DNA of 64,000 bases from Trissonchulus latispiculum (taxonomy: Eukaryota > Nematoda > Enoplea > Enoplida > Ironidae), in contig JASAND010018061.1 of assembly GCA_030248195.1 (NCBI GenBank), positions 1-64,000 of the forward strand, read 5' to 3'. The translations under genes were made by a program, and so were the position numbers. Positions 6,514 to 34,613 of the stretch are shown here, piece by piece (position 1 is the first letter of the stretch; each line of letters starts with the position of its first letter). The notes below the pieces were generated by a model. It saw nothing but the letters and a program-made list of their open reading frames with translations, was not told the origin of the DNA and did no database searches.

Positions 6514-9500
6514 GTGCACGAACAACGGAATGTTATCAGCAGAAACTTCCAGTGCCCTGTATGTGAAAAGTCATTTCCCGAAAAGTGGAGACTTATGAGA
6601 CATCGGCGTACTCATAAACACAGTGGCCCTTTTCCAGCGAAACCAGTATCAACACCTCAAGACCAATCCACAAGTGTGGAATCAGATAGAGAGGACGATA
6701 TAGACCCACCCACTGACCTTAACATCCCCCCTGATTTAGCCCAAATTTTTATAGATAACTGGCAGAAAATCAAAATCTACGAACACACATGCAATGGTGG
6801 TATTCTCAAGAAGTACAACATCAGACTGCAAGGAAACAGGTTGATCGAAATCAAGTCAAACCTTTCTCGAGTATTCGAAAAGTAAACCACAGCATCAAAG
6901 TTTAACATCTCTTTTGGATTCTGCCTACGAAGCTTAGTCAATGATGAGTTGTCCTACTGGTATGAATCGGCAAACACCAAAGTCCTCGACAAACCAAAGC
7001 ACGTGGATAACAAAACTCAACTGAAAGAACTGTTGCATATTATTGATGGCATTGATCTTCAAGAATGGGCCCACAAGAAAAGACCAACAACTAAGTTTGT
7101 CCTCGAGCGTTTGATTAATATGACGGTTTATGTTTATAAGGTTCCCAACTTCCCCGTTGGTTTAGGAGTCAGGCTACCTGAGCATGTTAGGGAGAATCCT
7201 GCCATAATGTCCCTGACGCATAGCCATGGTCTTCCGTATAACGACCATCTATGCTTTTTCAGCTGTTTGGTAACCTCAATGTCTGGTCGTAACAGAGACT
7301 ACTTGGAAAAACTAACCAAACGCCTTTTTGTCTTTGGTGCCACCACAAAGGTGTAAATCCAGATCAACCATTCCATGGAGTAACCTTTGCGGATCTGGAT
7401 GACCTCGAAAGATATTTTAAAATCAATATTTACGTCTACGAACTTTTAAAAAGTTCTGATGACCTATCTGAGAACGAATCCGAGGAAGGCGAGGATGAAG
7501 AGAAACCAATTGAAGATGAACCTGCCATAAAACCAGCTGTAGATAACCAAGAACCAGGGGAAACGCCCGTCACAATTGCCTCTCAGAATGAGGTCGTGCA
7601 AATGGTTGATTCTGATGAATTGGCTCAGAGTCACGAGGATGAATTGCTTACAACATCTGGTGTTACTTTAGCTGATTTACTGAGAGAAGCGGACGTGTCA
7701 GAAAGAATACCATTTCCTGTGTTGGCAGTACGTGAAGATAGTGAAAGCGACAACAGCATGTCTCTGGTAGAGGAATCCAGGAATCGCTTGCCCCGAAATC
7801 CGTTCATTTTAGACGAGGCAGAAGTCTCCAACGGGGATGATGACGATGATTGTGCTGACAATGAATCAGTCAGTGTGACCGTGTAGCCGAATGGTTAAGG
7901 CTCCGGACTTCGGATCGAAAGGTCCGAGGTTCGATTCCCGCCTTAGCGATAATGACGTTACATTGCTTCCTTGAGCAAGAACCTTAGGCCACTGCTCCGC
8001 CGGTCGGATGAGGCGTTAAAATGGTGGGCCCGTGTGCTGCCTTGCTGGGGGTAGTGCACGCTAAAGAACCCTAAATCCACTTATCGTCAAGAGTAGTGCG
8101 AGGGAGTGTTGGGTGCAAACGAGTCATGTACTCAAAATGGATCACACAACTTTCCGGGTTTGTCTCTGATCCCACCCTATCTGCGCTTGGGGCTTGGAGT
8201 GTTGAAAGATGCTGTGCTCCTCTACCTTGCGTATGAGTAGTTAATGGATGTCTTACTACAAGAGCCGTAAGGCCAAGAAGATGTCTGCTCGAGCTTACCA
8301 TTGTGGGACAGCATTCAGGCGACGAAGCGAGAGTCATACTAGCTATGACTGATGGGGAGAGACAAAGGTTAGCGCCCTCATATAGCCTCTTGGCTGAGTA
8401 GCCCGGGAATAACAACAGCAACAGCAACAATGCATCAGTTCAGGGCACTCCTACCCACGATGACCCAGACAACCCAGGTGATGAGGTCACTACCGCACCC
8501 CCACAAATACCAAGGACTACTGCACACACGACAGGTGCAGTTTGCACGTTTGGTTCGACGTCCCAAATAGTTGGATAGTAACCGTTTTCAGTACCTCAAT
8601 TTGTGTTAAAATCGCTTTTCCCTTTAATCACTGATATCGAGCAATTACTCCAAATGCTGGCGTTGACAAAAGTGCGACAGACTTTTCGACAAAAGAAGCA
8701 ACTACAATAGACATGCTAATCTGTGTAAAGGATCTCCAACAAAATATATTTATCCTGGAGGAGGATAGAGCATGCCAAAGCAGGTTCATGAGTTGTTGGT
8801 AGAAGAGGGATTCAACATCCCAGAAAGATTCTATCCCTTCCGAGCAACCTATAACTTTGAAGCTATGTTTGAACAGTTAGACCAACGAAGCCCTTCTGGA
8901 AAACTCGTTTTTACGAAAAAGCTGATACCAGCTTCTGTCAGTATTGCCTCGAATGTCCCCGGCTATAAAGAGCCTGTATGCTATGTATTTGAGGGTGATC
9001 CCGGAGAAATTGTGAAAAAATGGTCGATTACCTATGCCCACACTGTGCTAAAGAAAATGAATGGTTGTTGATATCACAGTGGGAGCTATCAAATGAAAAT
9101 TACAGAAGGTTCAAGGAAAGAAAGTATTTCAGAATTCAACACAGATTCAATGGTGGTCAGAAAAAGTTCTACAATGGTTCGTCAGTCTACCCTGTCGACG
9201 GATTCCTGCCTCACTACCCCTTAATAAACGGTTCAATTATTTTTCAATTTCATGGTTGCTACTTTCACGGGCATAACTGACCGTCAACATGGATGCCGAA
9301 TTGAAACGGACGAAGGCACAAAACACTGCTGACATTGATGCCTTTTTGAGAACCCGATGTGCTGAATATAGAACAATTTATGAATGTGAATTCAACAAAG
9401 GTTATCGAATTAACTTGCCATCCAAAAAGAAACCAAAGATTTTTACAGCTGACGGTTTAATTCAGCAGATCTTGGGGGGAACATCTTTTGTCTCGTTGAA

Positions 9501-10541
9501 TGTAATATCCAGATTCCCTGGTTTAGAAGAGATCTTTGACACTTCTTCGAGGAACTCCCACCGATCTTCAAAAACACTTTAGTGTCGACCGAAACTATTG
9601 GACCGACAATGCGACAATTTGCTGAGGTCCTTGATCCGATGAAAACACCGAGACGAAGCTTGATATCTAGATATTACGCAACGAAAATACTGCTGGCTAC
9701 GCCTCAGTTAGAATGGTATTTGTACCAAAGAGCTCGTGTGACACGAGTCTATGAGGTAATAGAATTCGACCGAGGGCAGCCGTTTCTTGGTATCGAAACG
9801 GAAATAGCCGATCACCGCCGAGCCGCCGATCAGGCGAGTCTCAACAAATTGCTGGAAAGCTGTGGAAGCTCATAGGCAATTCGTACTATGGTCGATCCTG
9901 CATGGACCTCGAAAAACATGTAAACGTTAAGCTTGCAAACAGTGGCAAGCTTCGAAAACTTATTAATGATCCCCTATTAAAAGATAGCGAAGACATTACT
10001 GATGGTGTATATGAAGCAGCTCTAGCAAAGTCAACAATCATCTTTAACCTTCCCAACTTGATTGGGTTATTCGTATACGCTCATGCCAAAATCAGGATGT
10101 TGGAGTTTTATGTCTTTCTAAGAAAGTATTTGGGAGAGGAAAATTTCCAAATTTCCAATTTTCAAATCCCAATACCTCGCCACGAATGAATAAGATCAAA
10201 GGACGCCAGGGTTATTCAAGCTAGAATGGAGAGGGGACAGAATGGTTGCCCTATGCTCCAAATCCAAATACGATTGGAAGAACGACCCTACCACTGGCCA
10301 ACAAATTGCAAGTGCAAAGGTGTCCACCAAGGGACCTTCCAAGCAAACCAATGCGGTTACAAAGGAAATGTTCATTCAGTCTTTGATGGACAACGTTGTC
10401 AGTGGAGGAACGAATCGTGGATTTCGCCTTAACTAAGATGAACTGGTGCAGTACAAACAAGAAAAGAACGCTCTCACCTTCATGTACCCTAAAGGGATAG
10501 TTCTGGCTGATAACATCTCCACGAAGCCACTACTAATTTAA
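6514..10541 (+). pseudogene. Polinton/Maverick protein-primed type-B DNA polymerase, degraded
   Basis: A decayed PolB readable in pieces on one strand. In order: an N-terminal C2H2 finger (FQCPVCEKSFPEKWRLMRH, 6550-6620); the conserved N-terminal domain with NDHLCFFSCLV (about 7240-7270); an acidic linker; the exonuclease-like start YNFEAMFEQ, with Asn where an acidic residue is expected (8850-8875); a GCYFHGH box (about 9253-9273); PPIFKNTLVSTE and PRRSLI (9555-9670); the polymerase motif KLWKLIGNSYYG (around 9865-9895); and a C-terminal part with GTNRGF and KGIVLADNIST ending at 10541. There are frameshifts near 7356, 9060, 9280, 9582, 9870 and 10190 and several stops. The DTDS catalytic motif expected after FLRKYLGEENF is deleted. 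A SINE splits it at 7877-8432. Replication enzyme of a virus-like transposon, certainly inactive here. Confidence 0.85.
7877..8432 (+). mobile_element. tRNA-Arg(TCG)-derived SINE inserted in PolB
   Basis: The head (7877-7949) resembles a tRNA: an A box (TAGCCGAATGG), an anticodon-like loop CTTCGGA and a perfect B box (GGTTCGATTCC), closest in layout to tRNA-Arg-TCG. The body continues with a SINE-like domain (CCTTGAGCAAGAACCTTAGG) and ends in an AACAACAGCAACAGCAACAA tail. Imperfect flanking repeats (AATGAATCAGTCAG before, AATGCATCAGTTCAG after) look like the target duplication. The acceptor arm is not paired cleanly, so this is a SINE and not a tRNA gene. Antisense reading frames over it are not genes. 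Confidence 0.8.
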
Positions 10542-15414: not shown

Positions 15415-16084
15415 GGCGTTTCACAAAGGGCTCCTAAATCTAGTTCCTAAATCCCTCCTATCTTATCTCTTATGAGCAGTTTACGAGCAATTTATGAGCG
15501 GCTCCTAAAGTGTTTCACAAAGCTCCCTCTTAAACTGCTCCTAGACTTTCGCTCATAACCACCTCTTAGCGCCTTTCTCTTAACTTTCTAAGCACTTTCA
15601 CGCTGGGAACTTATGAGGAGTGCTGGAAAAGTTAAGAGACTTACAAGTTTAAATGACTTTATACTATATTCACCTACTAAATATGGTAATAAATAGATCA
15701 TTGTAATCGAACATTCTCAAATTTAAAGGCAAGGATAAAATTAACTTGTTTCTTATTTTTAGACAAAAGTAATGTCGAAATTCCAAACATTTACTATCAT
15801 ATATTTATACTTTATATTCATCAGTTGAAACTTATAAAAAGACTAATAAGTTTTTACAGAACTTTCCTGGAGGAATACAATACATTACACCTTTATCTTG
15901 GCTAAATATTTGAACAATTAGCACTTGAGAGTGCGTTATGAGCAGATTTTGGGCTCCTAATTTTAAAAGGCGATTTAGGAGGTCTCTTAGTTTAGGAGCT
16001 CTTCGTGAAACACCATTCTCCTAACTTTTATCATAAGTGGTAAACTTAGGAGCTCTTAGCGCTATGAGCCCTTTGTGAAACGCC
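15415..16084. mobile_element. MITE with 19-bp perfect TIRs
   Basis: Left end GGCGTTTCACAAAGGGCTC (15415-15433) is the exact reverse complement of the right end (16066-16084). Inside each end, diverged subterminal copies of GCTCCTAA / TTAGGAG and GAGCAGTTTACGAGC-like motifs repeat. There is no transposase frame. The element is about 670 bp. No clear target duplication is visible, so the superfamily is not assigned. Confidence 0.8.
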
Positions 16085-16257
16085 ACACTGTTTTTAGTTA
16101 TCAACTATATTATATGCTTTCTTGATTTGTCCAATATTGACTGCTGTACAAAGTGGTACAAAGTACACTGTACAAGTACTATGGTACAAAGTTTGTATTA
16201 AGACCATTGAGTGTTGTTTGTATAATTGTTAAAACTGGAATAGTTGCGAATCATCAT

Positions 16258-16376
16258 CAAGTTCAGCGAAAGCTTAAATGCAGATATAAGTATTTTCAGA
16301 TCTTAGGTACGAATAAAGTTCTTCTTTGAATAAAAAAGTTACGGTAGCACGAAATATTTTGAAACTTTTAATGTAA
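16258..16376 (+). pseudogene. Duplicated fragment of the Polinton small ORF at 20879-21226
   Basis: These ~115 bases match 21067-21180 closely (shared AGCGAAAGCTTAAA and ACGGTAGCACGAAATATTTT) but carry indels that break the frame. The fragment ends at GAAACTTTTA, then joins a copy of the host-like exon region from 11313 on. It is a rearrangement product, not a gene. Confidence 0.8.
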
Positions 16377-16770
16377 AATGTAAAATCAGTTGTGTCTTTT
16401 ACTATTTGAGATCCTTTGCGTTTTTGCACCACATCTCCATATCTAACACGAATATACTTAATTAATTAATGGGAAATCTGCCAACTATTACAGTTGAAAC
16501 GGTGTAAATGAAGTTGGAACAGAGCCATAATCGTACTGAAATAGGCTAGAGAAATGCTCAAATGCTCCAATATATATTTACATAAATCTTGAACCACATG
16601 CAACCTAATAAATTTATATAAAATAATAAAATTAAAATTAATTTATCGCGAAAATTAACGAAGCAGTGGCATTCTTTATTGTTTCAGCTTCCTCGCCCAT
16701 ACACATCTTCACCATCTCCTTCTCCAAACAAGGACACATTCAAGGATATCGCCAATTCTCCTAACCGTAG
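16377..16770 (+). repeat. Second copy of the 11313-11705 segment
   Basis: About 390 bp match 11313-11705, including the intron, the acceptor TTTCAG and most of exon 2 (the Ser/Pro-rich segment), with few differences. The match stops at CTAACCGTAG, where the Polinton integrase coding sequence begins. The two copies are in direct orientation about 5.06 kb apart. Confidence 0.85.
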
Positions 16771-17471
16771 TTGCAGCGTCACCGCGTCTTCCAGAATTTA
16801 TTCAAACTGGCACGGGTACAGAATTTAGAGACACCGAGCTTCAAAAGTTATTCATTGATAAAAATATTAAATTTTATACTTCACAAAATCCGCAAACCAA
16901 TGCAATTGTTGCCGAAAGAGTTATACGAACACTAAAGGTAGAATCTTTTGATTTCTTTCTCATAAAAGTTCCTGGGCATACATTGACGATTTGCAAAACA
17001 TTGTGAAGGGGTACAACAGATCTAAGCACAGAAATATAAAAATGGCTCCTAACCAAGTTACAAAAGATAATGAAACAAACCATCGTTAAGCATAAGTTAT
17101 TTCCAAAAGGAAAGGGTTCGTGGAGGAAGCCAAAGCTTAAAGTTGGTGAAACTGTAGAATTCAAAAAGAGAAAAACGTTTTCAGTAAAGGGTATGAACCA
17201 AATTGGACTGAAGAATTTTTTGAAATTATAGAAATTATTCCAAAAAATATCTTGTGTATCGATTACAAGATAGTAATGGTGAGGTTGTTATAGTAGCTTT
17301 TACGAGCAAGAGCTTCAAAAAGTTATTTCTCCCGAATTTTTTAAAATAGAGAAAATTATTAAACGCAGAAAAACCAAGCGAGGAAACGAATATTTAGTAA
17401 AATGGGCGGGATATCCGGAGTCAGCATGCAGCTGGGTTCAGGAAAAAGATATTGACCAAGTTTATTATTAG
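16771..17471 (+). pseudogene. Polinton retroviral-type integrase with C-terminal chromodomain, 5'-truncated
   Basis: The fragment starts inside the DDE core: FIQTGTGTEF (the second catalytic Asp position reads Gly), then AIVAERVIRTLK with the catalytic Glu. The linker (YNRSKHRNIKMAPNQV) and the post-core domain (NWTEEFFEIIEII) follow in shifted frames. A chromodomain closes the protein (FKIEKIIKRRKTKRGNEYLV, WAGYPESACSW, 17340-17471). There are at least three frameshifts and the first catalytic Asp is missing. It would have integrated the element DNA, with the chromodomain guiding it to chromatin. It directly abuts duplicated non-Polinton DNA on its 5' side. Confidence 0.85.
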
Positions 17472-17476
17472 TCTAG

Positions 17477-18063
17477 TTGTCACAGCGAGCGTTTGCGTTC
17501 TGCATATTTACATTTCCGATAAGCACCAATATTCAGGCTACTGTGAATTTCAATCGGTGCTTAGATTTATTGAAAATACCAAAAGCTTTTCCAAACACAA
17601 AATATCAACCTAACAAATTTAGAGGTTTGGTATGGAAAATTCGGCTCAGTAGAGGCAAAAGGGTGACTGTATTACTATTCCCAAATGGGAATGCGTCCAT
17701 TGTAGGCGCGACTTTAGAGGATCACATTTCCGAGAGCATAACTGTGAAATGTTATTAAATAGTCTGAAAATAAAGGTGACAGCATCATCTTATAAAATTC
17801 ATAACGTAGTTGCTGCGGGAAATTTATTCCACCGCATAGACTTAGATTACCTACGCCGAACGTTGCAAAGGAACTATGTCATTATCGATGATGTAGAGCT
17901 TTGTGGCTTAAGAGTGAAGATAGGTTCTAGTGCTGTGGCGATTCTTTTTCATACTAGCAAAATTATTTTAAGTGGAAATAGAACGTTTTCTGACATGCAA
18001 GCTGCAACGGTTGTAATCACCACACCAATAAGAAGCAGCCTGACACTAGATAACCTAGTAGAC
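17477..18063 (+). pseudogene. TBP-like two-repeat saddle protein in a Polinton (frameshifted)
   Basis: Two consecutive frames (to 17758 and from 17749) together read like the two structural repeats of a TATA-box-binding protein. Repeat 1 has IQATVNFNRCLDL, YQPNKFRGLVWKIR and VTVLLFPNGNASIVGAT. Repeat 2 has YKIHNVVAAGNLFHRIDL, then ELCGLRVKI and AVAILFHTSKIILSGNR. Order, spacing (about 90 residues per repeat) and the hydrophobic LIF.SGK.V.TGA-like strand pattern all match the family. Two phenylalanine or equivalent intercalating positions cannot be assigned by eye. A single frameshift lies near 17750-17758. The second frame has no stop before the penton start, so its end is uncertain. Its place between integrase and capsid genes suggests an element-encoded promoter factor. 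Confidence 0.7.
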
Positions 18064-18676
18064 ATGTCAAGTTTTAATGTCACTATATGTTGATAGCACA
18101 GGTGTAGTTCGTCTTTGGAAGTGGGCGACTACGAAGTTGCGGTAACAAAATGTCATTTCACTAGGTCATCTCACCAGGAGATATTAAGCTATCTTCTGAA
18201 TCAGGAAACAAAATTTTTAAATTCGAAGGGGGTATTTTGACACTGAGCGAGATTTGGTTAAACGTGTCAATAAACGTTTTCGAACAGAAGGGCTGAGCAT
18301 TAGACTTAAATTAAAAGGAGATACCATCAAACTAACCGAGGAGGATGGTGTCACTATAACTTTTCCTGAATCGCTTAGTGACATCTTCGGATTTACTGAC
18401 AATGCAACCACTGGCCCGAGGACACTTGTATAGCGTTGAACAAACAGTTTTGTTGTTGCCGATATTGTGCAACCACAACTAGTTAATAGCACAATGCTCC
18501 CTCTGCTTTATGTACACACTCTCCACAATCCAAATTTTCACCTAAATTACTTGAAACTTAGCTGTTCAGAGTTGTCGGCCATAAGTATTAAATGCTTTGA
18601 TTTGAACCTAAAGCCAATAGATACAAACGGCACTACGCTAGTCCTACAACTTCATTTTAGAAAACTTAATAAGTAG
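18064..18676 (+). pseudogene. Polinton minor capsid (penton-like) protein, broken
   Basis: The start MSSFNVT resembles Polinton penton-like proteins, and two stops follow it at once (18091-18096). Next comes LEVGDYEVAVTKCHFTR, the typical 'gives-value-to' strand near the N terminus. The middle is frameshifted (LRLKLKGDTIKLTEEDGV, about 18300-18350), and the C-terminal part is intact: VQPQLVNSTMLPLLYVH and a final LQLHFRK before the stop at 18674. Family knowledge: these single-jelly-roll proteins form the capsid vertices. It sits just before the basic core peptide and the major capsid gene, as part of a structural module. Confidence 0.75.
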
Positions 18677-18704
18677 GACACATGTTTTGGTTTATAAATT
18701 TATC

Positions 18705-18854
18705 ATGCCCAAATCAAAACGTATTGCATTCTTCCCTACTAGTTTGGGTAAGAGAGTGTCTAAATACAAAAGAAGGCATCACAAGCAAATCAAAAAAGTT
18801 GTTCGTCGTCGAAGGCGCCGTTCTACTAAACAACGTAGAAGACGGCATCGATGA
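18705..18854 (+). CDS. 49-aa highly basic, core-protein-like peptide
   Basis: An ATG at 18705 opens a 49-codon frame ending at 18852-18854. It starts MPKSKRIAFFPTSLGKRVSK and ends in a cluster of consecutive Arg (VVRRRRRRSTKQRRRRHR). Nearly half of the residues are Arg or Lys. The stop overlaps the next ATG as ATGA (18851-18854). Composition, size and position beside the capsid genes suggest a DNA-condensing virion core peptide, like small adenovirus core proteins. That is inference; no homologue can be shown here. It is one of the few intact frames of the block. Confidence 0.6.
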   Translation: MPKSKRIAFFPTSLGKRVSKYKRRHHKQIKKVVRRRRRRSTKQRRRRHR

Positions 18855-20189
18855 GCAAGCGAGCTACTAGGACTGAATCTAAGCACGGTTGTAGTGTTGA
18901 TGCATTGGACTACGGTTGAATTCAAAATATTCTGCAGGCTGTGGAAAGTTCGCAAGTACTGGAGGTACCTTGTTACACTAGTCTTCCACGAGAAGATACG
19001 ACCCCGCTAGAGTTCAGAATAGACAAGACCGACACTTACATTGACTTAATAGACAATTCTAAATTGTATCTGAAACTGCAAGCTTTGAAAGAGGACGGTT
19101 CTGAGCTTGGTGCAAAAAATTTCATTTCTACGTGCAATTTATTTTGTTATGCATTATTTGCATGCTGTGAAATTTATATCAGTGATCAGCGTATAACATA
19201 TGATCAAAATGTATATCCTTGGATATGTTATTTGAGATATTTGCTACTTAAAAGTGCAGACTCGTTTGACTTAAAACTTGTCAACTGGACTAAAGATCCG
19301 CCAGAGCATGGAAATGAGCACTACATAACAGCCGTAGGCAAAATGGTGATTTTGAATGCCGCTATGAAAACGAGAAGAGGTGTTATTTCTAATTCAAAAA
19401 ATTAGAAATGCTAATTCCATTGCTAACAGACTTTGACGCATTTGGCAAATTTTTTCCAAATCAAACTGAAATACTTATTAGACTGATACGAACTCCTGCA
19501 TCATTTGCCCTTTTCGATCAAATTGACAAACTCAAATGTAATATCAAAGTTTTAGATGCAAAAGTTTATATCCCCAGAATAAAACTTATAGCTAATGCTC
19601 TTCAGGCGTACGATCGTTTACTAAATTCTAAAGGTTTCGATTACCCACTAACACGCTATATTGGAAAAGCAAAAAGTTTACTTGTTGGAGATCAGAATAT
19701 AGAATGGACAGTGTTTACAGGTGATCTACCGAAACGAATATTTATGTTCAAGGTCCATTCTTCAGCTTACAATTCCATGGTATATTCCAATCCATTCGAT
19801 TTTTAGATGCATACCCTCTCTAACTTATACGTATATATAAATGACATAAGTTTACCTGTAGCAACAGGTTTTAGTGTAAAGTGATAAGGGCGAAATTAGA
19901 ATGTTTACGTACGCGATTGCTAGTGTGGTAAAAGAAAACCAGCAGCTCCATCTAACCTTGAAGGATTTTCTAAAAGTTTTTTTCAATTTTTGTTATTGAT
20001 TGCACTAAAGATCAATCAGCGGGAAGCTGTGGTTACGTAAATCCTCCAACCTACGGCAATCTTCGACTCAGAGTTGACATTAAACGAGCTATTACTGCTG
20101 CAGTCACCTTAGTGGTAATTGCAGAGTTTGACGGAATTTTACACATCGACGCAAACAGAAATCCAAATTGGGTAGAAACAACTTATTAA
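18851..20189 (+). pseudogene. Polinton major capsid protein (double jelly-roll), broken
   Basis: Starts at an ATG overlapping the core peptide stop (MSKRATRTESK). An in-frame TGA follows at 18917-18919 and then a long readable stretch: TPLEFRIDKTDTYIDL, SKLYLKLQAL, ISDQRITYDQNVYPW. After a stop near 19403 it resumes with FGKFFPNQTEILIRLIRT, PLTRYIGKAK, GDLPKRIFMF and YSNPFDF. Beyond further stops and frame changes it ends with YGNLRLRVDI, VVIAEFDGILHIDANRNP, stop at 20187. Total about 445 codons, the normal size for the family. Family knowledge: it forms the pseudo-hexameric capsid shell. At least four lesions are visible. Confidence 0.8.
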
Positions 20190-20248
20190 GTAGACCGCTC
20201 ATCTAAAGTTTTGTTATTTTTGGTTACTCAATTTCAATTATAATCAGT

Positions 20249-20874
20249 ATGATTTTACAGCAACCCTATACGATGGTAGTATCGGGTGCAATCGGGACAG
20301 GAAAAACCGTTTTTCTCAGCAACCTACTTAAAAATCAAGAAAGTTTACATAACAGACCATTTGACAGAATAATCTATTTTTATTCAATGTTTCAAAATAT
20401 TTATACACAACTTCTTAGTTCAATATCAAACATCGAACTAATTCAAGGAGTTCCAGATAATGTACTGGATCTTGTTAGTAGCCAAAGTTCGACTCTGTTA
20501 ATCCTTGACGATCTTATGATGGAGCTAGAAAGAGATAAGCGATTACCAACCATATTTACTAAGTGCCGTCACGTGGACTGCTCAATAATTTTAGTACTAC
20601 AGAACTTATATCACGACTCCAAATATTTGAGAGCAGTTACCAGAAACGCTCACTATGTGGTTCTTTTTCCAAACCCTCGTGATGCCATGATTATACACAA
20701 ATTAGGAAATAAAATTTTTCCCGGAAAATCAAAGTTTTTGCCATCTGCTTTTGTGCAGGCAACAGTAAAGCAGTTCGGCTATTTATTCTTGGATTTAAAA
20801 CTAACAACCACAACAAATTTAAAGAAGGAATACTACCGGGAGAGCAGGAATATTTATATCTACCTCAGAATTAA
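20249..20874 (+). pseudogene. Polinton FtsK/HerA-type genome-packaging ATPase, one frameshift
   Basis: ATG at 20249. Walker A GAIGTGKT (residues 13-20), Walker B LLILDDLM (83-90), and QNLYHD (118-123) after beta-strand SIILVL. The frame is intact to about residue 188 (LFLDLKLTTTTN). There a small frameshift (about 20815-20825) moves the natural ending, LPGEQEYLYLPQN, into another frame, with stop TAA at 20872-20874. In the unshifted frame translation runs on into the following gene. Family knowledge: this enzyme pumps DNA into capsids. It lies just after the major capsid gene, the usual Polinton neighbourhood. Confidence 0.85.
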
Positions 20875-20878
20875 TAAA

Positions 20879-21226
20879 ATGCTACAACTTCAAAACCGCT
20901 TAGTTATGTCTTTAAATCTAAAAGATTATTTGCCTATTCTCAAGGTACTTGCAAGCACAAACCCCAAAGTAGCCAACGCTACCTTGTCCCCAGCAAAAAG
21001 TGGTTTAATTAACGCACTAACAGAAATTGTCCACAACACTCTAAACGGTAGCGTCAATCTTCCTCTTCAAGTTCAGCGAAAGCTTAAACGCAGATATAAG
21101 TATTTTCAGATCTTAGGTACGAAAAAGGTTTCTTTGAATAAAAAAGTTACGGTAGCACGAAATATTTTGAAACTTTTACAGAACGCATTGCAATCAGCAT
21201 TAAAGTTTTTAGATACGCTTCCCTGA
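20879..21226 (+). CDS. Polinton small conserved ORF (Lys-rich, unknown function)
   Basis: ATG at 20879 (MLQLQNRLVMSLNLKDYL), stop TGA at 21224-21226; 115 codons. Features: LKVLASTNPKVANATLSPAK, then ALTEIVHNTLNGSVNLPL, and a basic stretch VQRKLKRRYKYFQILG. This layout (AL.EI..N.L.G...L followed by Lys/Arg) is common in small accessory ORFs of animal Polintons. The role is not established. It is intact here. The C-terminal half is also present, broken, at 16258-16376. Confidence 0.6.
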   Translation: MLQLQNRLVMSLNLKDYLPILKVLASTNPKVANATLSPAKSGLINALTEIVHNTLNGSVNLPLQVQRKLKRRYKYFQILGTKKVSLNKKVTVARNILKLLQNALQSALKFLDTLP

Positions 21227-21478
21227 ATGGCTCAACGAATGGTAGTAGTTCCAGAAAATGTGTATCAGAAATTAATTGCTAGCTCGTCATCTGAAACCAA
21301 ATCTGAAGTACCTGAACCAGGTTACAGTTTTGTGACCGACTCAAAAACTACTCAGTTGCACTGGACAAGTATAAACCGGGCTTTACTACCTAAACATTAT
21401 AGAAATAAAGCTCGAGTATTGTTACATTATTTGGATTGCAACGTTCATTTAGATAAGGTACCGTATTCTCGCGCTTAA
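21227..21478 (+). CDS. Polinton accessory ORF, 3'-truncated
   Basis: ATG follows the preceding stop directly (TGAATG at 21224-21229). The frame begins MAQRMVVVPENVYQKLI and continues with LLPKHYRNKARVLLHYLD. Polinton accessory proteins often open with a similar VPE..Y..L phrase and carry KA..LL..L later. The expected tail is replaced: the frame stops at TAA inside CTTAAGGG (21476-21478), where a TTAA-type repeat begins. The stop is therefore supplied by inserted DNA. Confidence 0.55.
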   Translation: MAQRMVVVPENVYQKLIASSSSETKSEVPEPGYSFVTDSKTTQLHWTSINRALLPKHYRNKARVLLHYLDCNVHLDKVPYSRA

Positions 21479-21489
21479 GGGAACACTCA

Positions 21490-21513
21490 CTTAAGAGAAC
21501 ATGTTCTCTTAAG
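21490..21513. repeat. 24-bp perfect palindrome with TTAA ends
   Basis: Half-site CTTAAGAGAACA followed immediately by its exact reverse complement. It sits between TTAA at 21476 and the start of the TTAA-type repeat at about 21509. It may be an excision footprint or the remnant of a TTAA insertion. Confidence 0.7.
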
Positions 21514-22360
21514 GGGAGGGGGTCGCCAGGTACCAAATTTTATAGTCACCGATTTAGCTCATTTTTGGGTATAATATACCCCCATATGTGCCCAAAAAGA
21601 AGACAAATGTTTAGAGTCCAGGGTCAATCCAGTCTAGAGATATTGCAGTTCAAATCTCTACAATTTAGTATTTACGTCAGTATGCCTCGCTGAGGGCTTC
21701 GAAGTCGCATACAAGTGGGATGACAGGAGACTGTGGCATGACAAATAACATCGATTTAAAGCCTTTACCTGTAGGTGTTTATTACCGCATAAATTACAGT
21801 GGCAACCTAAGCAATGAGCGAGACACGGCGATTGGACGATTTGGTAAATCTTATTTCGACTGTCATTTGTTTCAAACTTTAACTGGCTCTAACTTTCTCA
21901 TACTGCTTTATAGAGACTTGGTGCTAGAAGATAAAATGTTCAGGACATCGAGAGCTTCAATTTGATCTAAAATATGGCTATATTTGAAAAATTTGAATAT
22001 TTGACATTTTTTGCTCATAGGTGTCCGTCATGCCATCGTAGTATGTCACCAGAGGAAAACATAAGCTATTGGCATGGAACTTCACATAAGTGTTGGTTTT
22101 ATCCCAGTCTATTAGCATGCCAAATTTTATTGAGATACCTTAAGATTTGACTGACTTATGAAGCAGCAAACATGAAATTTTGAACAATGAAAAACAAAAA
22201 TGACGATTTTTGAGGAAAAATGGAACTTCCGCTACCAAAACTGCGAGCTACTGAAAAGGCCAAATAGGGATTGATTATATGCAAAATAAAGCTCTAACAA
22301 TATACTGTGCTATTATCTAAACGCGAAGTTTATACACCAAAGGGTTAGTTCAGGACAAGA
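21509..22360 (+). mobile_element. TTAA-type repeat element, copy 1 (right end degraded)
   Basis: Begins TTAAGGGGAGGGGGTCGCC and matches 42066-42375 over the first part (shared TACCAAATTTTATAGTCACC, GTCCAGGGTCAATCCAGT, CATCG/CATCA AATTTAAAGCC). It matches 46405-46460 further on (ATCTAAACGCGAAGTTTATAC, GGTTAGTTCAGG). The sister copy has a right end ending in TTAA; here the right end cannot be found after about 22360. It truncates the Polinton accessory gene. No transposase was seen. Confidence 0.7.
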
Positions 22361-23261
22361 CAAGGTTAAGGAAGAGTTGTGAATAGGTGTATATAATGAT
22401 ATTTTGTATTTTATGATAATCCCATATTGAGCAATTAATGATTTACGTATTGTATTTTTAGTATTTTTACCTGAAAAACTTCGTCGAGTTCTTATGATTC
22501 TGAGCCATTTCACAGCTTATATATTTTTGTAACTGAATGGAAAGCAAAAAACTAAAATAGAAACAATAAAATAAAACAAATATTAGAGGTGTATTAATTA
22601 CAAATACCAATAAGTTAAAATATAAATAACTTAAAGTACAAATAAGTCAAATGGGAAATATAATTAAAAAATCAATTTAAAAACTCAAATTAATACGTGG
22701 GAAAAGATATGATTTTTATTAGTGGGGTTGATTTTATAAGGAACGAACAATAAAAACGATAATTACTAGTGAGACGAAAAAAGGGGGAATGGTAAAAGCA
22801 AATAATTGCAGAAGTGTAAATGAATAGTGAACTAAATCGTGCAGGAGAATGGGATTGATGGTAAGAATGAAGGATTTCAGATTAAGGAAATTCAAGAGCT
22901 GAGATTCCGTATTCATAAATTTACAGAAGTAATGAATCTTTCGGCCCCAATCCCTTAGATTTATACTTAAGCAAATTTATGAATACCTATTAATTTTAAT
23001 TGGGGCGGGTGCCGAAATCCGTCATCAGAGGGATCCAGTATTAAGGTGCCAATAGTGAACATCTCGCTCAGATACAATAGAAGTTATATACTGGTTGGGC
23101 CAAGACTCAACGAGACCCGGACTTCGGACTAATTATTTTCTATATTTACGTCAGCGATCAATTTATCTATGAAAGCTATGTACGACTTCATTTCTATGAC
23201 AAAATTGGTAAAAGATTTTTGGTAATACTAATTAATTTTGTAGAAGATAATTGGTTCGATC
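22361..23261. other. AT-rich spacer
   Basis: No gene supported. It may contain the eroded right part of the TTAA repeat. Short antisense frames (22313-22513, 22734-22916) have no recognisable features. Confidence 0.4.
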
Positions 23262-25288: not shown

Positions 25289-26716
25289 TCAATTTATATC
25301 CTTAATTATGAATTCATGTGCATATTTTTTATTGATCCACTGATTTGCTCTAATTGTCCTGTTGAATACCTCTTTAAAAAGTTTGTTAGAATATCCTCTT
25401 TGCATTAAATTTGCTTTTAATTCTTTTGTTTGTAGAAGGAAGAATTCTTTTAAAGTACAGATTTTTGCTGTTCTTACTATTTGGTTTTGTATCATATTTT
25501 TAAAAACCATTTTAGATATGTTAGAACTTGGTTCAGGAAATCTGTTTATTTTGAAACAAAAATCCTTTCTTTTATCATATATTTTTGTGTCAAATTGATT
25601 ATTGTTTACAGTTATGTCTAAATCCAAAACGTTAGCACTGGTGTTACTAGTGTTAACTTTGTTTAATTCTAAATTACTAGGATACATTTTACCTGAGTTT
25701 TGTTCAAATATATTTTTATCATTTACAGTGGTTATGTCATCTATATGTCGGAAGACAAAATACAAGTATTTGTTTGTTGCCAGATTTTTATCTGAGGTAA
25801 CGAAGTCAAACTCCAAAGAATGCAGTGTAATATTGGCTATGGTGGGTAGAGCATTAGTTCCCATAGGAATACCTATTAATTGTTTAAAGATTTTATCACC
25901 AATAGTGAAATAAGTATTGTCAATTAAGAATTTACACATTTCAATTACGTCAAAATGATCTAGGGTAGGATATTTTTGTTCTCCGTTACCCCAATGAATT
26001 TTATTGTAACGTATGTGTAGTTTGGAATGAAGTGTATCTTTTACCAGTTTTTCGATGGCTGTATTTATAGTTGAGTGTTCCAAGTTGGTGTATAGAGTTG
26101 TAAAGTCATAAGTATTTATAGATTCTGCTGATTTAATTTTGTTAAGAAATTCATTAGTTTCTAGAATTGGAGTATTGTTATCAATTACCCAGTTCGGATT
26201 GCATCCATATTTCCCTTTGTATATGTTGCATTGTTTTTTACGTTTTATAAATAGCAGTTTAAGTATTTGGTCTAATATTTTTGATAAATATTTAGTTGGG
26301 GCATACTTACTGGCTATAATTGTTCTGAATTTTATAGGAAATTTGTGGAATTTGGGGATAATATACATGAATGGTAAATTGAAGGCAGAGTTTTTGTGAT
26401 TTAGTTTTTTATTGTAAAATTCCATTTGTTTAAGTATCTCCTGTGCGGTTTTATTTTCCACAACGGTATATGTATTATTATTGTTATTAATGTTGTTTAT
26501 GAGACCTAATTCTTTTAGCATAGAATAGATGTAGAATTGTTTGCAGGTTGCGGCAAAATTTTGTGATGCTTTATCTGTAAGGGTAAATACAAAATCTTTA
26601 CCTAGTACTTTAAGTTTTTCTTTAACGTCTTTTACATTTATTGTATTATTTTTATTATAGTTAATAAACTTGTGTTTTGATATGGTGTTGTTTAGATTAG
26701 TGCTGATAGTAATCAA
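25289..26716 (-). CDS. Reverse transcriptase of an unusual (Penelope-like?) family
   Basis: An uninterrupted 475-codon frame, very AT-rich and Asn/Lys-rich. RT signatures in order: YIIPKFHKFPIKFRTIIAS (118-136), motif A TYDFTTLYTNL (202-212), motif B GIPMGTNALPTIAN (282-295), motif C FRHIDD (322-327) in place of YxDD, and then MYPSNLELNK, ANVLDLDITV and IYDKRKDFCFKINRFP. This arrangement is typical of a widespread invertebrate RT family related to Penelope-like or other LTR-less elements. No GIY-YIG or AP endonuclease, RNase H or integrase is attached. Intact, so possibly young. Hairpin array B follows its stop at once. The exact clade is not certain. Confidence 0.75.
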   Translation of the reverse strand: MITISTNLNNTISKHKFINYNKNNTINVKDVKEKLKVLGKDFVFTLTDKASQNFAATCKQFYIYSMLKELGLINNINNNNNTYTVVENKTAQEILKQMEFYNKKLNHKNSAFNLPFMYIIPKFHKFPIKFRTIIASKYAPTKYLSKILDQILKLLFIKRKKQCNIYKGKYGCNPNWVIDNNTPILETNEFLNKIKSAESINTYDFTTLYTNLEHSTINTAIEKLVKDTLHSKLHIRYNKIHWGNGEQKYPTLDHFDVIEMCKFLIDNTYFTIGDKIFKQLIGIPMGTNALPTIANITLHSLEFDFVTSDKNLATNKYLYFVFRHIDDITTVNDKNIFEQNSGKMYPSNLELNKVNTSNTSANVLDLDITVNNNQFDTKIYDKRKDFCFKINRFPEPSSNISKMVFKNMIQNQIVRTAKICTLKEFFLLQTKELKANLMQRGYSNKLFKEVFNRTIRANQWINKKYAHEFIIKDIN

Positions 26717-33106: not shown

Positions 33107-34613
33107 GAAAACACTGGAAGTATGGTTTAAGAAGACGAAAGAAAGAGACTTAAATTGAGACTGAAAGAGATAAGATCCGATATGTTGGAGTGACTACTAA
33201 TGAAGCTTTGGATGGAAGATCCACCAAATCCTCGAATAGCCTGATGGGTTGAGTACGTCCGTCCGTTGGCACTGGTGATCCGGCACAAACCGGGTAAGGC
33301 AAATCAACTGGCAGACGCGATGTCTCGCATCAAGTCCGTTCGTGTGTTACCGAAGCATGAGTGGACTGATGCGGAGTTCGTTGTCGCGTTGGCTGAAGAA
33401 AGCGATCCCTCCCAGTTACAGGACCTGGGGCTTGTTCAAGTTGGACCTCTCTGGTACTATGAGGATTGTGGCGAGCTGCGTCTCTATGTCCCAAAGCGCC
33501 TCCGGCAAGGGCTTGTTCTGGAACACCATGGCGGGGCAAAAGGGGGTCACTTCGGGTGGAGATCTATCTACTCCGAGCTGTCCAAGAGGTTCTTCTGGCC
33601 CGGCATGTCCGCTGACACGAAGCGGTGGGTGTTGGCATGCCAGGTGTGTCGCAAACGCCACGCTGGCTTCAGGGAGGTACCATGCCTGACCCCCATTTGG
33701 GTAGAAGGTCCGAATGAGATGGTGGCCGCAGATATAACCCATTTGCCTCGAAGCCATGAGGGGCATAGGTATGTCCTCGCGGTTATTGACCATTTCAGCA
33801 AGTTTGCGCAAGCCTACATACTTCCTGACATCTCATCGAATTCGGTGATTGTGGCATTGACGAAGTACTTCATGGTGGCTGGGTATCCCAAGAAGGTACT
33901 CACCGAGCAAGGAAGGTGCTTTACCTCACGGAATTTTCAAGCTTTCTGTGAGTCCAAGGGGATTGGTCATGCCATGTCAACGCCCAACCATCCACAGGGG
34001 AATGGTGTGGTCGAACGCTTTATCAGAACTCTGATTGACGTTCTTGCAAAGAAGGCCTCAGCTGACCCTTTGAGATGGGATAGCTACTTGGAGGAAGCCG
34101 TCTCCGCCTCCTTGGACACTCCGCATTCGTCCACCGGCAAGACTCCGCGGGAGATTGCTTTTATTAAAGACGAAAGGCTGCTGCAGGAGATACGCCAAAG
34201 GATCAGCAAGGATCAGCTGTTGCGAAAGCAGGCCTTCGATCGGTCCAAAGCTAGACCGAAAACGTTGCGGTCGGGCGACAAGGTCTGCGTCTATGACCGG
34301 TCGAAGAGAGTCGGAAAGGAAGGAAAGCTGGCGTCCCCCTGGGGAGGCCCTATTTCTGTGGAGGAGGTCTATCCTACCACGGCCCGGTGCGTCTATGGGG
34401 ATGGCACCTCTAAGACGCATTCCAGAAGCAACATTGTGAAGATTCAAAACGCAGAGACGCGTTTTCCTCTGGAAGGGGATGATGAAAAGACTGGAAGTAT
34501 GGTTTAAGAAGACGAAAGAAAGAGACTTAAATTGAGACTGAAAGAGATAAGATCCGATATGTTGGAGTGACTACGTTTCATATATATACATTGCATTGTG
34601 ATAAGAGAACATC

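Follow-up and report, generated by a model that had tools for sequence, protein, structure and literature searches.

Does a TATA-binding protein (TBP) gene that lies inside a nematode Polinton belong to the element, and what could it do there? The locus that raises this question is a 64,000-nucleotide stretch of Trissonchulus latispiculum contig JASAND010018061.1 (positions 1-64,000; hereafter the window), in which a first-pass annotation had read two adjacent frames as the two repeats of TBP. Profile searches bear this out, with order and spacing of the repeats as expected. Searched separately, frame 17477-17755 matches Pfam TBP PF00352 with 48.4 bits (E 8.7e-13, profile positions 5-75 of 85) and frame 17653-18090 matches it with 27 bits (E 4.2e-6, positions 2-78 of 85). 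Both exceed the curated cut-off of 22.9 bits, so the absence of a profile match that was to have told against the idea did not occur. Among PDB sequences, the first frame has 35 distinct matches, 34 of them named TBP or TBP fusions (best 1mp9, 1.7e-16). The 35th, 4wzs, carries the name 'ECU04_1440 protein', which we take to be a TBP as well. For the second frame there are nine PDB matches; the top seven are TBP or 4wzs, and the last two are an unrelated '6b protein'. An AlphaFold2 model of the first frame, made without an alignment, had a pLDDT of 50.8, and PHROGs profiles returned only weak matches in the window.

The window copy of the gene is interrupted and occupies two forward-strand frames, split near 17740-17758. 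Repeat 1 spans about 17525-17743 (in frame 17477-17755; 53% identity to an open type F copy, as defined below), and repeat 2 lies in a different frame at 17743-18057 (in frame 17653-18090; 44%). By comparison with open relatives, the two repeats sit between the integrase (16776-17453) and the minor capsid match (18230-18673). A chance match is excluded, because open relatives score 84-127 bits with both repeats in one frame. Judged from sequence, a TBP-like gene is present within the window Polinton.

The gene content identifies the surrounding copy as a decayed Polinton (Maverick) of type F, in which each member of the hallmark set of PolB, integrase, major and minor capsid proteins and ATPase has a match. 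All features lie on the forward strand. The C-terminal part of PolB is found in five pieces at 9041-10538 (tblastn with type F PolB, 39-64% identity), and the decayed integrase matches its type F counterpart at 46% (tblastn, E 2e-50). Downstream of the TBP repeats follow a decayed minor capsid (penton-like) protein at 18064-18673, with its tblastn match at 43%, and an open frame for a small, very basic protein at 18705-18854, whose place suggests a core or PW-like product. The major capsid protein lies in pieces at 18839-20186 (tblastn with the type F protein, 43-74% by piece). An A32-like packaging ATPase matches within one open frame at 20255-20875 (PF04665, E 5.1e-9; 69% to type F). Terminal inverted repeats of at least 40 bp were absent from window positions 1-30000 of this decayed copy. 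Outside the element, a second integrase-like stretch lies at 33614-34159 (26-31% to Polinton integrases), and a 475-aa open frame at 25289-26716 has, by eye, the look of a retroelement reverse transcriptase.

The gene is not peculiar to this copy. In the assembly (733.8 Mb, 21,732 contigs), the PF00352 search gave 1,271 first-look candidates, and all 150 that were scored pass the cut-off. The highest-scoring pair, at 112 and 105 bits, are ordinary host TBP exons as judged by eye. The other 148 score 62.7-74.6 bits, some loci giving two matches, one per repeat; individual inspection covered the fetched loci among them. Twenty pieces of about 10 kb around TBP matches were fetched, hand-picked from the matches listed, and every one contains another Polinton gene (tblastn, with some of the queries drawn from these very pieces). 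Seen from the capsid side, a TBP match lies within 4.5 kb at at least 66 of 91 major capsid places. This count used all 98 major capsid rows, the 88 of 106 rows seen to reach into TBP in a search with a type F frame (L031, described below), and 58 of the 150 PF00352 rows that were type B-like by eye, the other 92 being left out.

Sorted by gene order and similarity, the TBP-bearing Polintons fall into four types, A, B, C and F. Type A has the order integrase, TBP, minor capsid, major capsid, ATPase. In type B, integrase and ATPase are followed by small genes, a NADAR gene, TBP, minor capsid and major capsid. In type C, TBP is encoded in the reverse orientation relative to the ATPase, integrase and capsid genes beside it. 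Type F runs from integrase through TBP and minor capsid in one frame to the small basic protein, major capsid and ATPase. TBP is a separate frame in types A, B and C. Open relatives score 105-127 bits against PF00352 in A, B and C and 84-102 bits in F, and two PF00352 stretches were found in all seven open frames tested across the four types. Open relatives in the same genome, for which the first-pass annotation had advised looking, have a two-repeat TBP between integrase and minor capsid genes, so that its second refuting outcome did not occur either. The integrase of one A copy and one F copy matches Pfam rve and Chromo, that is, an integrase with a chromodomain. NADAR genes (PF08719) were recognized in type B, directly before TBP (L015:717-1262, E 7.6e-43), and in type A (L022:9610-9999, E 8.2e-20). 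One type B copy holds NADAR and TBP in a single 328-aa frame (L035:4863-5846). Separately, a type A copy encodes a CARD domain (PF00619, E 3.7e-7) at L022:2720-3256, possibly a cell-death or immune-signalling gene within a Polinton.

Capsid names rest on gene order and profile comparison. The capsid half of the type F frame aligns with its type C counterpart at an hhalign probability of 95.1% (E 3.3e-8, three-row profile) and with its type B counterpart over 62 columns at 92.9% (E 3.8e-7). Against PDB, the capsid profiles gave no real match (A4 two chance-level rows, A5 and A8 none). Many near-full-length major capsid matches list one to three internal stops, possibly where the match overruns the start of a frame whose open length is about 450-470 aa. 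Among IMG/VR viral contigs, no relative was found with the second TBP frame, the window ATPase, or the major capsid, integrase and ATPase queries. The TBP alignment retrieved one IMG/VR contig, L021 (TBP frame 7055-7669); it was rejected as a Polinton for its terminase- and portal-like frames, recognized by eye, and is read as a tailed, perhaps archaeal virus.

Element TBP is mostly under purifying selection. Within types, dN/dS (Nei-Gojobori) is at or below 0.25 in 42 of the 50 pairs with a value; the highest values, 0.68 and 0.72, come from two type C pairs with dS near 0.05. The capsid half has ratios of 0.06-0.19 in the seven type F pairs outside group F6 that gave a value; two pairs within F6, at dS 0.02, gave 0.58 and 0.67. 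A maximum-likelihood tree of 21 TBPs recovers each type as a single clade (F 98/96, A 100/99, B 99/97, C 98/100), with A and F joined at 83/84. Host TBP (L001, L002) is of the same family and has the same two repeats, yet it groups with the TBPs of microsporidia and archaea (support 86/78, drawn as open), and the element TBPs form separate clades outside this group. Hence, the element TBPs do not resemble recent copies of the host gene. Two Asn and four Phe positions are presumably the DNA contacts of cellular TBP, namely the central Asn pair and the intercalating Phe. The Asn pair and three of the Phe are invariant in 17 aligned TBPs. Types B and C also retain the third intercalating Phe; one of three A rows has Tyr there, and all eight F rows have lost it, a point against the transcription-factor reading developed below. 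By alignment, then, most of the putative DNA-contact positions are kept in element TBP.

The type F arrangement places TBP and minor capsid in one reading frame. A genome search with the 407-aa frame of L031 gave 106 matches, from 102 scored of 640 candidates. At least 29 of the 106 matches listed, the query included, run through both halves as one stop-free frame (query start at or before 46, query end at or beyond 319, no stop), and within these 29 identity to the query falls to 31%. Another seven matches cover both halves but contain stops, and one of these is a type A copy without the fusion. Twelve fused copies, chosen by length and aligned, have no interruption anywhere in the frame. All 12 share a conserved Met at the fusion junction, where the unfused type A protein begins, and the spacing before this Met is constant. 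A TATA-like box lies 39 bp upstream of the Met, inside TBP codons. Its Ile codon is ATA in 12 of 12 fused frames, compared with 81 of the 344 other Ile codons there, and the 12 are not independent events because the copies are related. Since a single frame, a box and a conserved Met coincide at the junction, we infer that type F would yield both a TBP-minor-capsid fusion and the minor capsid protein alone. In the pair L042 and L044, dS is 0.24 in the TBP halves and 0.85 in the capsid halves, which suggests that the halves recombined.

Could the type F TBP domain be mainly a part of the virion? Placed N-terminal to the minor capsid protein, it would hold the genome, or be delivered with it for immediate transcription in the cell entered next. 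The persistence of one frame across such divergence speaks for this, as does the constant spacing between box codon and Met in the 12 copies read, which had been chosen for length. The box and conserved Met at the junction suggest, on the other hand, that the capsid half is also made alone, and TBP stands as a separate frame in A, B and C. We consider a mainly structural role unlikely and prefer to read element TBP as a transcription factor, for which the sequences upstream of element genes are the relevant evidence.

TATA-like boxes do occur there, and their sequence depends on the type: TTAATAAG-like in A, F and C, and TATAAAAG in B. Within 120 bp upstream of 82 filtered starts, TATAAA was the top 6-mer (31 sense, 8 antisense, 9.4 +/- 2.5 in shuffles). 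TATAAA as the common box of all types was dropped when a larger set, split by type, revealed type-specific boxes. The larger set comprises 175 of 261 starts (74 in A+F, 47 in C, 54 in B), included because a diverged homologue exists in another of the fetched pieces or because they are the minor capsid start of a fused frame; near-alike upstream stretches were removed, and some starts may be spurious. The top 7-mer is TTAATAA in A+F (19 sense, 6 antisense, 2.1 expected) and TATAAAA in B (18, 2 and 1.6). For type C, GATGCAA ranks first (7, 0 and 0.3), followed by AATAAGA (10, 1 and 0.8) and TAAGAAG (10, 2 and 0.8). The shorter word AATAAG occurs 19 times sense and twice antisense in A+F, with 10 of the 19 at -40 to -31. 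It is found 15 against 2 times in C, scattered from -80 to -21, and 0 against 2 times in B. Conversely, TATAAA is strand-biased in B (23 against 4, with 14 of the 23 at -40 to -31) and stands at 7 against 4 in both A+F and C.

A positional control in 45-bp bins concentrates these patterns before the starts; the longer A/F/C pattern had been picked after the sequences were seen. In A+F it is present in 8 of 68 in the bin from -95 and 13 of 68 in the bin from -50, then in 0-4 per bin through +310. It also recurs in 7 of 64 in the bin from +355, which counts against a promoter reading. For C, the figures are 11 and 5 of 47 in the bins from -95 and -50, none up to +310, and 2 of 47 after that. Type B has TATAAAA in 18 of 54 in the bin from -50 and in 0-3 of 54 in the other bins. 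Overall, a box precedes 10 of 35 starts in A, 14 of 39 in F, 16 of 47 in C and 22 of 54 in B (TATAAA), some of the starts perhaps being spurious, and the A/F/C pattern precedes only one of 54 starts in type B. Type B boxes keep to a narrow range of distances from the ATG (median 36, quartiles 34-40); those of A, F and C vary more (median 52, quartiles 40-67), which again counts against promoters. With both strands counted, window positions 16001-22500 hold four pattern matches, of which two are exactly 39 bp upstream of an ATG: CCAATAAGAAG at 18025-18035, within TBP codons and ahead of the minor capsid ATG at 18064, and TTAATAAGTAG at 18666-18676, ahead of the ATG at 18705. Elsewhere (32001-64000) the pattern density is 0.25 (+) and 0.34 (-) per kb.

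Capsid genes are among those so marked. Type B elements have TATAAAAG, usually between -34 and -42, at the genes for minor capsid, major capsid and ATPase, at a small basic gene and at one whose product begins MDKKK or MEKKK; for each of these genes, only some copies have the box. Upstream of minor capsid, ATPase and several small genes in A and F stands the TTAATAAG-type box, which some copies also have before the major capsid gene. The integrase, hardly a late gene, carries it in all four type A copies, and part of the type C TBP genes carry a TTAATAAG box themselves; both observations count against the promoter reading. The type A TBP gene is preceded instead by TATATAAA or TATATAAG (4 of 4), and neither box was found in the 54-80 bp upstream of the type F TBP gene in 12 copies. 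A G+C-rich stretch (GAGCGG) stands shortly before the TBP ATG in type F copies L042, L044-L047 and L052, perhaps a different promoter class. On balance, we favour the view that the boxes would act as promoters, perhaps with another role for part of those in A, F and C.

Because a TBP is combined with a TATA-like signal before part of the genes, the element probably marks its own genes for transcription. Our main reading, to which we assign a probability of roughly 0.6 on sequence grounds, is that element TBP recognises the element's own boxes and recruits host RNA polymerase II, as the late TBP mimics of herpesviruses do. Element TBP would bind the element boxes and bend the DNA as cellular TBP does. 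Together with host TFIIB, it would then bring host RNA polymerase II to element genes, including those for the capsid. The first step in types A and F would be activation of the TBP gene by the host machinery: A has TATATAAA or TATATAAG at this gene, and in F neither box was seen. The first-pass annotation had likewise proposed an element-borne promoter-recognition factor; it did not cover the frame shared with the minor capsid protein, the presence of TBP in four Polinton types, or the boxes. Boxes that differ by element type support the proposal, but they stand at only part of the genes. No TFIIB was found in 20 element frames, which counts against the mechanism. A paired change of TBP and box would fit the finding that both differ between types. 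The canonical box belongs to type B alone, whose TBP has the four Phe; type C also has four Phe, and its boxes are mostly variant.

That host TBP could serve TATAAAAG counts against recognition by the element's own TBP and leads to a second alternative, in which element TBP is a decoy or poison that depresses host transcription by sequestering host TFIIB or promoters, while host TBP serves the boxes. Host TBP should indeed bind the canonical TATAAAAG of type B and TATATAAA before the type A TBP gene. Such a role nevertheless leaves the non-canonical, type-dependent boxes of A, F and C unaccounted for, as well as the retention of most DNA-contact positions, and we regard it as quite improbable. 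Least plausible of all is a third alternative, in which the boxes, those of A, F and C at any rate, belong to the preceding gene as its poly(A) signal or stop codon and are unrelated to TBP: AATAAA is sense-biased too in A+F (22 against 6), and 9 of 26 A/F/C boxes begin 8 to 1 bases before a stop and overlap it, the TAA of the box being that stop in 6 of the 9. Against this, the box starts ahead of the upstream frame's stop for 20 of 26 cases in A, F and C and 10 of 13 in B, lies mid-frame in the fused frames, precedes some type C TBP genes on the strand opposite to their neighbours, and is replaced by TATAAAAG in type B.

Recruitment of host RNA polymerase II by element TBP stays our preferred reading. 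In a more far-reaching version, animal Polintons would have a promoter code of their own, with a matching TBP and TATA-like box in every lineage, and the type F TBP, as part of the minor capsid (vertex) protein, would travel in the particle and reach the next cell together with the genome; we offer this tentatively and rate it as rather doubtful. If the general reading is true, these elements would be a small, Pol II-dependent case of viral promoter takeover. They would also offer a natural series of diverged TBP/box pairs for the study of how TBP specificity changes. TBP in a capsid frame would link virion assembly with transcription, a connection of which we met no description.

Searches of open-access PMC brought up no description of a TBP in an animal Polinton. 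Vertebrate Mavericks have the order integrase, minor capsid, PW, major capsid (PMC8097293), which fits types A and F; the nematode elements differ from them in placing TBP between integrase and minor capsid or fusing it to the latter. The words 'TATA' and 'transcription' do not occur in the main text of that paper. The type orders also agree with the position of the penton gene near the major capsid gene in PMC4028283.

TBP is known from other viral and virus-derived genomes. A mimivirus-type TBP appears in PMC11464507, and TATA-binding proteins in the Cymbomonas genome belong to elements of putative mirusvirus origin (PMC10675990). The TBPs of large dsDNA viruses are two-lobed and conserve the DNA-contact positions (PMC7221094), and the Polinton TBP resembles them in both respects. 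Nearly all of these viruses encode a TFIIB-like protein as well (PMC7221094); the 20 Polinton frames showed none.

The closest precedent for the proposed role lies in herpesviruses. The TBP mimic of gammaherpesviruses takes the place of host TBP at late promoters, which carry a TATT motif, and binds Pol II (PMC7498053). As with KSHV ORF24 and EBV BcRF1 of the beta/gamma-herpesvirus system, the Polintons would combine an element-coded TBP-like factor, a presumed use of host Pol II and a TATA variant before a set of genes (PMC7498053), the role here being proposed by analogy. The two differ in several respects. The herpesvirus TBP-like domain was found by fold threading (PMC7498053), whereas plain Pfam detects the Polinton TBP. 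The herpesvirus mimic depends on additional viral partners and contacts the Pol II tail (PMC7498053), whereas in type F the Polinton TBP and a capsid protein occupy one frame. Set beside the herpesvirus late system, the Polinton boxes are non-canonical in types A, F and C and canonical in type B.
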